From NCBI RefSeq assembly GCF_001618865.1, contig NZ_CP015136.1, forward strand, positions 124,001-188,000: a DNA stretch of 64,000 bases, read 5' to 3'. This document shows, piece after piece, positions 25,979 through 30,542 of the stretch (its first letter is position 1; every line of letters begins with the position of its first letter). The notes under the pieces were generated by a model. That model saw nothing but the letters and a program-made list of their open reading frames with translations, did no database searches and was not told the origin of the DNA. This stretch comes from Luteitalea pratensis. Lineage in GTDB: Bacteria > Acidobacteriota > Vicinamibacteria > Vicinamibacterales > Vicinamibacteraceae. The translations under genes were made by a program, and so were the position numbers.

Positions 25979-28276
25979 CTATTGCTGCGGCTCGAGCACT
26001 GCGTCGTAGTCTGGCGGTCCATCCGCCTTGCGCACTCGGCACCCACACACCTTGTACTGCGGGATCTTGCTGATCGGGTCCTGCGCGGCCACGGTCAGCT
26101 GATTCGCGCTCTTCCGGCCAGCCCAGTGATACGGGATGAAGATGGTGTCGGGTCGGATCGTGGTCACCACCTGCGCCTTGAGGGTGATGGTCCCGCGTCG
26201 CGTCTCGGCCGTCGCCCACTCACCGTCCGTGATGCCCAGCTTGGCAGCCAGCCGCGGATGCATTTCGATCCGTGGTTCCGGGTACTGCTTCACCAGCGGC
26301 CCGATACGGCGTGTCTGTGTGCCGGACAGGAATTGACTGACGACCCGGCCGGTCGTCAGGTAGATCGGATACTCGTCGCTCGCATCGTCGACGGGCGGAC
26401 GATAGTCGGCGACGTTGAACCGCGCGCGGCCGTCGGGGAAGTAGAAGGGGCCGCTGCCCCTGGCGACCGGGTTGTAGCTGCCGGCCTCGAACAGTCGTGG
26501 GGTGCCGGGATGATCCGCGATCGCGACGCCGGTGCGCGGGTCTTCGCTGTAGCACGGCCAGAAGACGCCCAGCTGCTGCGTGATTTTCTCGTACGTCACG
26601 CCGGAGTAGTCGGCGACGCCGCCCTTGCTGGCTACGCGCAGTTCTTCGAAGATCTCGCGTGGCTCGGTGAAGGTGAAGCCGTGGGGCCGGCCGATCGCGT
26701 GCGCGATGTCCTGGATGATCCGCCAGTCCTCGCGGGCGTCACCGGGGCAGTCGACGGCCTTGTTGACCTTGATGATGCGGCCCTCGACCTGCGTGACCGT
26801 CCCTTCGTCTTCCTCGTGCAGGCTGCCCGGCAACACGACGTCGGCGTGCCAGGCGGTGTCGTTGAGGAAGAAGTCGATCGCGGCGTAGAACTCCAGCTTC
26901 TCGAGGCAGCGCGTGACGAACGCGTTGTCTGGCAGCGAGACCTTCGGGTTGAAGCAGATCGAGAGCAGGCCCTTGATCTCGCCGCGGTCGATCTTGCGGA
27001 ACAGCTCGTAGGCGTCGACGCCTGGCCCCGGCAGTTCCTGCTCGTCGATCCCCCAGACGCCGGCGATGTATTGCCGGTGTTCGGGGTTGCTGATGTCGCG
27101 CCAGCCAGGGAGCTGATCGCACTTCTGTCCGTGCTCACGACCGCCCTGTCCGTTGGCCTGGCCGACGATGGTGCCGTAGCCGCTCTTCGGCTTGCCAATC
27201 CGGCCGGACGCAAGCACGAGGTTGATCGTGCCGAGCGAGTTCTGCACGCCGTTCGAGTGATGCTCGATGCCGCGGGCGTGGAAGAGGAAACTCGTCTTCG
27301 CCGTCCCCCACCACTCGGCGGCCAGCATCAACGCCCGCTGCGGCACGCCGGTCACCTCCGCGGTCCGCGGCAGCGTCCACTCACTGCAGTACGCGGCGAC
27401 CTGATCGAAGCCGACCGTATGGGCGTCGATGAACGCGTGATCGAGCCAGTCGCGCTCGATCATGATCTGCAACACGCCCGCAAACAGCGCCGCGTCGCGC
27501 CCCGGCTTCACGGGCAGGTACAGATCACAGGTGCGGGCCGCAGGCGTGATCCGTGGATCCTGGACGATGATCTTCGCGCCCTGCTCGCGCGCTTGCCAGA
27601 TGTAGTTCGTCGTGATCGGCGAACACTCGGCGACGTTGGACCCCGCCACCCAGATCACATCGGTCCCGACCATGTCGGACCAGGGGTTGGTCGTCCGGTC
27701 GATGCCGAACGCCTTCTTGTTCGCCGCGCCGGCGCTGACCATGCACAGCCGGCCGTTGTAGTCGATGAACGGCGTCTTCAGGCAGACGCGCGCGAACTTG
27801 CCGAGCAGGTATGTCTTCTCGGTCGTCAGGCTGGCGCCGCCGAGGACACCGATGGCGCCGGGGCCATGGGTCTGCTGAATGCGCGCGATCTCGTTGGCGA
27901 CACGAATGATCGCCTCGCCGTACGGCAGCGAGCTGAAGCCAGACGCCGAGGACGGATCACGCCGAAGCGCTGTCGTCAGCCGGTCGGGATGCGAGCCCTG
28001 CAGGTACCGCTTGACGCCCTTGGGACACAACATGCCGCGATTGAACGGAAACTCCTCCCACGGCTCGAAGCCGATCACCTCGTTGTCGCGGACCTTGAGC
28101 TGAATCCCGCACTGCTGCCCGCAGAAGCAGCAGTGCGTCTTGACCAGTCGATCCGGCTCGACGCTGGTCGACAGCCGCGCCCCGGTCATCGCCGACAGGT
28201 GCGGTCCGAACCGTTCGATGATGCGAAGGGGATCGGCCGGAATCTCAGCCACGACCGCTACCTCTCTCTGGTTCAT
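25979..28276 (-). CDS. Molybdopterin oxidoreductase, nitrate reductase-like (NasA/NarB/NapA group)
   Basis: This 765-residue catalytic subunit binds a bis-MGD molybdenum cofactor and one [4Fe-4S] cluster (CCFCGQQCG ... MLCPKG, residues about 48-86). NGRLCMVSA places a Cys as Mo ligand, as in Nas/Nap nitrate reductases and unlike formate dehydrogenases with selenocysteine or HGPSV contexts. Other family blocks are [45 protein letters not shown] and [15 protein letters not shown]. No Tat signal is visible, so it is probably cytoplasmic. It overlaps the NarK-fusion gene by 32 bases. Nitrate as substrate is inferred from the family and the NarK neighbour. Confidence 0.88.
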
Positions 28277-30542
28277 TCAGGTACTGCTGCCACAACGCCC
28301 CCTGCGCCAGGCCGAAGAGTGCACGCCGGCACGTGGGGCAGACGTCCTGGTAGTGCCCGCCGCCGGCCAACTCGTACCGGAAGCCGAGTTCCTGCTCGAC
28401 GGTGGTGAGGTCGCGCACCATCAACTGCGAGGCGTAGGGTCGTCCGCAGCGCCGGCACGCGGCTTGCGGGTCGCGGGCGCCGGCGTCCTTGTAGAAGCCG
28501 ACGCCGAGTTGGGCAGGCCGTTGGAAGACGTGGAACAGCTTGCCGAACGGCAGCCACAGGAGCGTCACGATCACCGTCGCCGCGTGGAGAATCGCCAGGA
28601 ACTCATAGGCGTAACCGCGCATCCACGTGTAACTGGCCGTCAGCATCAGCCCGGTCACGCTGATCGCGAAGAGCAGCAGGAGCGGCAGGATGTCCTGACC
28701 GAACTGCTGCACGGCAACGGCGCCGTGATCGATCATGCGCCGTCGGAAGGCGAGCATGACGCCGGCAATGACCAGGAACGACGCCCACACGAGCCCGTGG
28801 AAGATGACAAAGGCGAACGCCGACTCGACAGGGAAGTCCTGCACCGGGATGCCGAACACGAACGTGCGGTACATGTGCAGGTTGCCGGGGACGGTCTCGA
28901 AGTGAATCCAGCCCCAGACCAGCGGGAACGTGATTGCCGCTGCGAGCAGGCACCCCCACATGATCAGCCAGTGCGCGAGTCCGCGGAGCCGGCCGCGCCG
29001 GAAGATGTAAGCATTGGCCGCAAACTCCACCAGCGCCCGGCGTCCCAGGCTCAGGGTGTTGCCGGCGAGCGCACGCCGTGAGAAGAACGCCTGCCACCCG
29101 CGCCGCCAATACATGCGTGTCGGCGGACGCTGCAGCCACATCGCGTATCGATAGCTGATCCCGAACGCAGCAAACAGCGTCGCGAACGTGTAGCCGACGA
29201 GCGCCGCGTCGAAGTGTTCGAGCCTGCGCGACCCGATGACGATGGCCGCTGCCAGTGTGGCCGTGACCAGCCCTGCCCATGCGCTGGCTCGGACACGCTC
29301 GAGCGCCTGACGTGCGCCCACCGGCAAGGACTCCGTCCACGCGATGTCGCCGGGACGGAAGACGCGGTGGTTCGCCGCACGGAGCGCCAGCGCGGTCGCC
29401 GACAGCAGGAGGAACCCCGGCCAGATGGCGCCGAGGCGATCGCTGAAGACGCCGAGGAGCAATGGCGGAAAGAACCCCCCGAGCCCGCCGAGGGCGCCGA
29501 CCAGGCCGGTCACCGTACCGGTATCTTTCGGGAAGTGCTCCGGCACCAGCTTGAAGACGGCACCGTTGCCGAGTCCCATCAGCATCGCGCACCCGAGCGC
29601 GCCGACGGTGAAGGGCACCATCGACCGCCACGTCAGGAGCAGCGAGAACAGGGCCACACCGCCGAACACCCACGACAGGACCTGGGCACCGCCGATCCGA
29701 TCCGCCAGCCATCCGCCCAGGGGCCGCATGAGTGTCGCGAGCACGACGAATCCTGCCGCCCGCAGTCCCGCATCGGCGGGGGCCAGGCCGAACTGCGCCC
29801 GCAACAGCGTCGGCAGGTAGACCGAGAACGCCACGAAGCCGCCGAAGGTCAGGAAGTAGAAGGCGCCGAGCAGCCACGCGGTCGGTGCGCCGCGCAGGAT
29901 CGCGACCATCGCTGCGACCGTTGCGGGGCGGCCGGGCTGTGGGGGATTGCGCGCCAGCAGGACGTACGTCACCGCCCACGCCAGGAGGATCGCCGCCATG
30001 CCGCGGAACACCATCTCCCAGCCCAGGCTGGCCGCCACGACCGGGCCGACGAAGACCGCCAGCGACTGCCCCATCGTCCCCAGGCCGTATACCCCGAGCG
30101 CGGTGCCCTGCCGAGCCGCTGGAGTCCAGCGGGACACGAAGGCGGCTCCGACCGCGAACGACGAGCCGGGCATGCCGATGAGGAACGCCGCGACGAGCAG
30201 CGAACTGTAACTGCCGGTCAACGGAACGACGAAGGCGGCCAGGGCAGAAAAGGCGAGCAGCGCCGCGAACACGAGGCGTCCGCCGAACCGATCCGTCAGC
30301 ATGCCCATCGGCAGCCGCGCCAACGAGCCGAGCAGCACCGGGACCGCCACGAGGAGTGCGGTCTGGGACGCGCTCAGTTTGTACAGGCCCGTGAATACGG
30401 AGGCGAGTCCGCCAACCAGGCCCCACGCGGCAAATGAGATCGCGAACGAAATCGTCGCGAGGACCAGGGCGCGCGTCGGCGACCCGGCTGCATCGTCGGC
30501 GTGGCCGCCGGGGGGCGTGCTCTGACGTGACCTGTCGCGCAT
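28245..30542 (-). CDS. NarK-type nitrate/nitrite transporter fused to a NarI-like cytochrome b domain and a zinc ribbon
   Basis: This protein has about 765 residues. Residues about 20-400 are a 12-helix MFS transporter of the nitrate/nitrite porter group, with [12 protein letters not shown] and the signature [17 protein letters not shown] then [16 protein letters not shown]. Residues about 425-700 add further helices containing spaced histidines ([34 protein letters not shown]), a pattern like NarI or HdrE-type quinol-oxidising cytochrome b. The C-terminus has paired cysteines CRRCGRPY and CPTCRR, a zinc-ribbon pattern. I prefer ATG 30542; an in-frame GTG at 30566 is possible. It is the first gene of the operon. 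Confidence 0.82.

Follow-up and report, generated by a model that had tools for sequence, protein, structure and literature searches.

A NarK-type transporter fused to a NarI-like membrane subunit in Luteitalea pratensis: an occasional variant of a widespread Nas-type candidate nitrate reductase module

We have analysed a 64,000-nucleotide stretch of the Luteitalea pratensis genome (contig NZ_CP015136.1, positions 124,001 to 188,000; "the window" hereafter, with coordinates counted from its first letter), and in particular a minus-strand gene that joins a NarK-type transporter to a NarI-like membrane domain. This fusion exists and has been conserved, yet it is optional: it is an occasional variant of a gene module that is itself widespread. 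As assigned from profiles and models, the predicted module comprises a Nas-type molybdenum (Mo) subunit, a four-cluster iron-sulfur subunit, a membrane subunit with a NarI fold, and a bc-type Rieske protein that bears a motif of the twin-arginine translocation (Tat) type, all encoded together. A preliminary description of this DNA had proposed that one chain, encoded beside reductase genes, contains a full nitrate/nitrite porter, a NarI-like domain and CxxC pairs at its end, and this was borne out. That interpretation was right about the parts and overstated the fusion, which occurs as a variant in particular lineages, the cytochrome subunit of the module being as a rule a separate protein.

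The fusion gene

The open reading frame (ORF) and its parts are as follows.

28245-30566, minus strand: fusion ORF, 773 amino acids plus stop; GTG start at 30566, in-frame ATG at 30542
29361-30479, minus strand: NarK-type half of the major facilitator superfamily (MFS), residues ~30-402, from profile, aligned R84 and R281, and model fold
29295-29360, minus strand: linker, residues ~403-424 (about 20 residues), from linker comparison and full-length model
28497-29294, minus strand: six-helix domain of putative NarI/EtfD fold, residues ~425-690, with H532, H590, H661 and H679, from alignment, models and fold comparison
28317-28469, minus strand: CxxC...CxxC tail, C704, C707, C743 and C746, from alignment; presumably on the cytoplasmic side

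The span first proposed for this gene, 28245-30542, does hold a genuine ORF, on the minus strand; position 30542 is an internal ATG, and the longest frame starts at the GTG at 30566. A plus-strand reading of the same span was ruled out by stops in frame. Fusion through sequencing error was also ruled out, because 11 of 94 distinct rows in our cytochrome alignment are fused (among them that of the window, whose genome is a single contig) and the length of the linker is nearly constant: it is equal in 10 of the 11 fused proteins and longer by one residue in the other (L095). In the model of the full fusion, built on a 32-row alignment with a mean predicted local distance difference (pLDDT) of 86.3 and a predicted template modelling score (pTM) of 0.74, the linker is mostly helical (block pLDDT 77-86).

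The NarK model TIGR00886 matched residues 32-364 over the whole of its 368-position profile (E 1.7e-63). The score of 215 bits is under the curated cut-off of 311.7, as is that of the stand-alone NarK encoded beside NirB in the same genome (248.9). R84 and R281 align with Arg89 and Arg305, the nitrate-binding arginines of E. coli NarK; both positions are Arg in 35/35 rows, E. coli NarK among them. A Foldseek search with the full-length model returned NarK crystal structures at ranks 1-4 (E 8.8e-11 to 1.3e-9). Other MFS transporters rank directly behind, and the fold by itself therefore does not single out NarK. Excerpts of PMC5217062 describe nitrate in NarK as held between two arginines.

The NarI-like domain and its cysteine tail

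From about residue 425 the protein continues into six membrane helices, one more than in NarI, and then into the tail. No Pfam family matched this half of the window protein at E<=0.001, and at E<=1 only two weak zinc-finger matches appeared; Nitrate_red_gam (PF02665), not listed for the window protein, was found in 38 of 81 family members at E<=1, at best at 5.8e-5. The cytochrome profile gave only chance matches against PDB sequences (best E 0.39). Conservation across the 81-row alignment, which consists of the window protein and 80 related loci, was nearly complete: H532, H661 and H679 are kept in 81/81 rows and H590 in 80/81, and among the tail cysteines C704, C707 and C743 are kept in 81/81 and C746 in 80/81. 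The tail that carries these CxxC pairs may be a zinc ribbon, as proposed earlier, or rubredoxin-like.

A model of residues 406-773 (pLDDT 91.6, pTM 0.84) was compared with known structures, and the comparisons pointed to NarI and EtfD, each together with an observation that weighs against the assignment. VIA-align placed EtfD first (Z 11.8 over 222 residues) and returned eight NarI entries at Z 10.6-11.2 (170-184 residues, root-mean-square deviation 4.5-5.5), the next unrelated row standing at 8.6, on a scale where the shared arrangement of helical bundles can by itself give up to Z 13. Foldseek with the NarI-like domain gave the NarI and EtfD families at probability 0.97-1.00 but with weak E-values (0.07-0.16), and rows of G-protein-coupled receptors (probability ~0.2) were interleaved at ranks 5-6. 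Alignment to E. coli NarI with hhalign set H661 on H187 and H679 on H205 at E 0.0015 but at a probability of 17%. In NarI, H187 and H205 are the His pair on the last helix, and H56 and H66 the other pair, both on one earlier helix. The latter arrangement is not reproduced here, as H532 is on one helix and H590 on another; the domain is therefore NarI-like rather than NarI, and its haem binding is putative.

Counts of Lys and Arg were 11 in the loop between transmembrane helices (TM) 2 and 3, 5 in the stretch after TM6, and 1-2 in the outer loops. The TM4-5 loop as cut contains neither residue (an RRR lies just before it), which leaves the charge argument incomplete. From helix ends and loop charges, H532 and H679 would lie toward the cytoplasmic side and H590 and H661 toward the periplasmic side. 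Haem-positioned His pairs had been looked for on the strength of the preliminary description, and the four histidines are placed so as to fit one pair on each side of the membrane; by this predicted topology each pair would hold one haem b.

Partners in the operon

The fusion is the first gene of a five-gene minus-strand operon and is followed by the Mo subunit, the 4Fe-4S subunit, the Rieske protein and a DUF6755 protein; adjacent genes overlap or are spaced by 2 to 32 bases.

25979-28276, minus strand: Nas-type molybdopterin oxidoreductase, 765 amino acids, from the motif GRLCMVSA and profile scores
25271-25960, minus strand: four-cluster 4Fe-4S electron-transfer subunit, 229 amino acids, 17 conserved Cys, from profile and alignment
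24624-25268, minus strand: bc-type Rieske protein, 214 amino acids, RRDFMKF Tat-like motif and disulfide cysteines, from profile and alignment
24376-24627, minus strand: DUF6755 protein, 83 amino acids from the ATG at 24627, two membrane helices by eye; its start overlaps the Rieske stop

The adjoining reductase that had been anticipated is thus present, as a Nas-type enzyme accompanied by four-cluster and Rieske proteins rather than as NarGH. The best profile for the Mo subunit was NasC (764 bits), followed by the formate dehydrogenase alpha model TIGR01591 (525 bits, cut-off 666); with the NarG model TIGR01580 it scored 43.5 bits against a cut-off of 1084 and is not NarG-type. The protein is 41.7% identical to the genome's own NasA, and no Tat motif was found in it on inspection by eye. 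Two observations tell against the Nas assignment: the score lies under the curated NasC cut-off (764 vs 1100), and among PDB sequences the Mo subunit is closer to formate dehydrogenases (398 bits) than to NapA (299 bits). The NirB-linked NasA of this genome is also under the NasC cut-off (802).

These PDB neighbours and the TIGR01591 score raise the possibility that the enzyme is a formate dehydrogenase-type or other oxidoreductase, whose associated NarK and SLAC1-type proteins would carry another anion. We consider this highly improbable, for the ligand motif GRLCMVSA, with Cys followed by Met and not by His, is unchanged in 77/77 Mo rows (two truncated rows, L033 and L056, fell below the score limit and were left out, and L005 and L010 have none). 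The NasC model scored 766-842 bits on six relatives, above formate dehydrogenase alpha in 6/6, and the NarK arginines are kept. The same site reads GRFCMASA in the NirB-linked NasA and ARLCHAAS, that is Cys-His, in the genome's FdhF-like protein.

In the 4Fe-4S subunit, 17 cysteines are kept in 70/70 rows. The four cluster ligands and both disulfide cysteines of the Rieske protein occur in 68/69 rows, the remaining row being cut at a contig end, and an RRxF-type motif, which precedes a hydrophobic stretch, lies upstream in 67/67 rows with a complete Rieske motif; L008, which a contig end truncates, is not counted.

AioB ranks third among the PDB sequence matches of the Rieske protein, and excerpts of PMC7331816 place AioA near NasC. 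Both observations would fit export in the manner of AioAB, in which the complex would hitchhike on the Tat signal of the Rieske protein, catalysis would take place in the periplasm and the transporter would meet some other need. At 37/80 loci, however, a NarK gene, fused or separate, or a gene of the SLAC1 type is in sight, which fits cytoplasmic catalysis, and the charge counts place the CxxC tail inside; we therefore regard AioAB-style export as very unlikely.

Distribution of the module and of the fusion

A scan of a genome collection gave 89 relatives, of which the best 80 were kept as loci. All five genes were present at 63/80, and five further loci also have the Rieske gene. At 78/80 the cytochrome gene is followed, on its own strand, by the Mo gene. 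Among the 17 incomplete loci, 11 run off the contig and four (L006, L048, L079 and L082) are without a recognisable DUF6755 only; L038 has nothing past the Mo gene in 6.6 kb. The last of the 17, L005 (8953-11574), has a fused gene whose C-terminus is altered and extended, with the last Cys lost and with no module in 9 kb downstream; this locus is probably degenerate or an assembly fault.

With regard to transporters, the NarK half is fused at 5 of the 80 loci, a separate NarK-like gene is present at 15 and a SLAC1-type channel at 17, and none is in sight at 43, many of which are short contigs. The SLAC1 identity was established by Pfam on one representative and extended to the other loci by clustering. 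The 17 loci with this gene beside the module include L009, L011, L012 and L052; it follows DUF6755 in 16/17 and lies upstream in L077. Perhaps the SLAC1-type channel stands in for NarK. It had been suggested beforehand that relatives with the two parts separate and unlinked would speak against the proposal. Such a picture was found in part: the cytochrome gene lacks the NarK half at 75/80 loci, which makes the fusion dispensable, but a separate NarK or a SLAC1-type gene accompanies the module at the loci counted above.

Within the window's own family the fusion occurs in only 2/7 genomes, which weighs against the reading preferred below, and within the order in 9/162 genomes, with at most six candidates (<=6) scored per genome. 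In a sample of 396 genomes from the phylum, with two candidates scored each, 61 gave a match at E<=1e-75: eight had both halves in one match, 49 had the cytochrome part without fusion and four had the transporter part alone. The fusion is thus found in 8/57 sampled genomes that have the cytochrome domain. For two of the eight fused rows, stops are listed in the wider frame; of these two, G015 is an unbroken 753-amino-acid ORF. Record titles of the relatives name Acidobacteriota, Planctomycetota, Myxococcota, Armatimonadota, Chloroflexota and Verrucomicrobiota, and further Bacteroidota, Bdellovibrionota, Gemmatimonadota, Pseudomonadota and Cyanobacteriota. The majority come from metagenome bins, which may be mislabelled; the named strains are Sorangium cellulosum and Roseimaritima sediminicola.

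History of the fusion

The cytochrome tree of 94 rows, from which ten near-duplicates had been dropped, places the 11 fused rows in two clades. An approximately unbiased test of a single fused cytochrome clade gave a marginal p of 0.049, on 92 rows (the long L111 and L112 removed) and with a hypothesis set after the tree had been seen. The two fused groups are also apart in the tree of the Mo subunit, drawn from 45 hand-chosen of 92 rows. The MFS halves form one clade, with 99% support in the Shimodaira-Hasegawa-like approximate likelihood-ratio test; this clade includes L096, whose MFS stretch is cut by a contig end. Most simply, either a single fusion would have taken place, with its downstream part replaced later, or members of one transporter lineage would have been fused twice. 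Unfused adjacent NarK and cytochrome pairs occur in L007, L027, L078, L082 and G297, and are a plausible intermediate toward fusion.

The fusion could be functionally neutral, with two independent modules in one chain. We hold this to be possible though not probable. Unfused cytochrome genes are the rule, both at the related loci and in 49/57 phylum-sample genomes with the domain, as neutrality would allow; on the other side, fused rows fall into two cytochrome clades and their MFS halves into one, a pattern suggesting that the fusion persisted while its partner half changed.

Proposed function

In our preferred reading, to which we assign a probability of about 0.6, the operon encodes a quinol:nitrate oxidoreductase bound to the membrane and facing the cytoplasm, one that works as NarGHI does but with a Nas catalytic subunit. 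Quinol would be oxidised near the periplasmic-side haem (H590/H661), electrons would cross the membrane to the cytoplasmic-side haem (H532/H679), and the 4Fe-4S subunit would relay them to the Mo centre, where cytoplasmic nitrate would be reduced to nitrite. The NarK half would import nitrate and may export nitrite. A 12-helix MFS domain with both ends inside precedes a six-helix domain of the same predicted orientation, so that the MFS C-terminus could run straight on. The fusion would fix a 1:1 stoichiometry and place nitrate entry beside the reductase, and, as a tether, it may make more nitrate available locally and remove nitrite, which could then pass to NrfA for reduction to ammonium.

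The genome carries a separate nasA-nirB-stand-alone narK cluster and an NrfA match of 455 bits. Because assimilation has its own gene set, and because NrfA is present as well, a respiratory function (nitrate to nitrite, then by NrfA to ammonium) is probably to be favoured over an assimilatory one. Three other Mo proteins that were scored (L122, L123 and L124) included neither NarG nor NapA; the genome has seven PF00384 matches, of which L125 was unscored and one lies inside a NuoG-like ORF of the window. No NirK match over its cut-off was found in the genome. Near some relatives we found Rrf2, ScdA and Crp-type genes and an NnrS match under its cut-off, with one representative of each scanned. 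This neighbour survey covered eight proteins; cluster c1 consists, by appearance, of shadow frames.

An assimilatory nitrate reductase anchored to the membrane by chance is the reading that the NasC score would favour, and excerpts of PMC7331816 call NasC/NasA exclusively assimilatory. We think it quite unlikely, given the separate assimilatory cluster, the four-cluster and NarI-like subunits, and the Rrf2, ScdA and NnrS-like genes near some relatives.

Two points about the Rieske protein weigh against the NarGHI-like reading. Such a path needs no Rieske protein, so that a conserved one stays unexplained by it, and the putative export of this protein by Tat is read from its motif. This Rieske protein probably acts in the periplasm, as a one-electron partner of high potential. 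One may accordingly picture a split path, similar to bifurcation in the cytochrome bc1 complex but on a NarI scaffold, in which one quinol electron goes to the periplasmic Rieske protein (and on to a cytochrome c or a terminal reductase) and the other by way of haems b to cytoplasmic nitrate. The conserved bc-type disulfide cysteines and RRxF motif would suit such a path, as would the presence of the Rieske gene at the 63 five-gene loci and five more, and there is precedent, in excerpts of PMC7754194, PMC5317091 and PMC4683180, for Rieske and b-type cytochrome genes inside the nitrate reductase clusters of Haloferax and Caldithrix and for a proposed Rieske/cytochrome b complex that feeds Nar in Methanoperedens. 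The catalytic subunits of these systems are located outside the membrane. Against a split path, the cytochrome has a NarI-type rather than a bc1-type fold, and no cytochrome c1/f gene was seen among the eight neighbour proteins scanned, most neighbours being unscanned. On balance we consider the split path unlikely.

Relation to known systems

The operon resembles E. coli NarGHI with NarK in its four-cluster Fe-S subunit, its linked NarK, its NarI-fold membrane subunit with an H-x17-H pair near the end and, as proposed here, a Mo enzyme that faces the cytoplasm. It differs in the Nas-type catalytic subunit, the extra N-terminal helix, the ligands on two other helices, the CxxC tail, the Rieske and DUF6755 proteins and the fusion of NarK. 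The membrane domain of mycobacterial EtfD, the best structural match, has no transporter; EtfD carries other domains and serves the oxidation of electron-transfer flavoprotein.

With NasC/NasA the module shares the catalytic subunit family and the Cys-Met active-site motif, but here the partners are 4Fe-4S, cytochrome b-like and Rieske proteins. The clade of NasA/NasC, AioA and NapA is described in excerpts of PMC7331816 as not associated with canonical four-cluster or membrane-anchor subunits, and the present module is an exception to that generalisation. Paracoccus NarK1-NarK2 is also a fused NarK transporter connected with nitrate respiration, with a domain-tethering role suggested for its linker in excerpts of PMC5217062; its partner is a second transporter, whereas here it is a membrane subunit of a reductase. 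Haloarchaeal NarGH is likewise encoded with a Rieske protein (NarB) and a di-haem b protein (NarC), but excerpts of PMC7754194 state that NarC has nine helices and is no NarI homologue, and describe a catalytic subunit that faces outside, with no fused transporter. Among the open PubMed Central papers listed in our searches we found no earlier description of the module, and no paper on DUF6755.

Other features of the window

Several other gene groups were noticed in the window. At 31346-35629 an RtcR gene on the minus strand (769 bits, over its cut-off) points away from ORFs on the plus strand which, read by eye, resemble RtcA and RtcB, and together these look like an RNA-repair cluster. A NuoG-like ORF followed by a NuoH-like start, named by eye, lies at 4365-6044 and probably belongs to a complex I operon near the window start. 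Two large minus-strand ORFs, at 19001-21619 and 37411-40227, read as MacB/FtsX-type permeases.

Implications

Profile libraries label the catalytic subunit an assimilatory nitrate reductase (below cut-off) and the fusion simply an MFS transporter, and these labels conceal a candidate respiratory nitrate reductase with a wide distribution in Planctomycetota, Acidobacteriota and Myxococcota. The natural series of fused porter, adjacent porter, porter elsewhere in the operon and SLAC1 instead is a ready test of whether a tether between porter and reductase improves flux. The Rieske protein is the most interesting part, and its conservation makes a quinol oxidase of NarI plus Rieske directly testable. 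Quite tentatively, for we think it doubtful as a whole, the module may represent an unnamed class of respiratory nitrate reductase in many phyla, with a Nas subunit, a NarI-fold di-haem b subunit and a periplasmic bc-type Rieske protein, in which the electrons of quinol would part, some taking a high-potential route in the periplasm and others going to nitrate in the cytoplasm, and in some lineages of which the porter would have become part of the electron-transfer subunit and would hand nitrate to the reductase.

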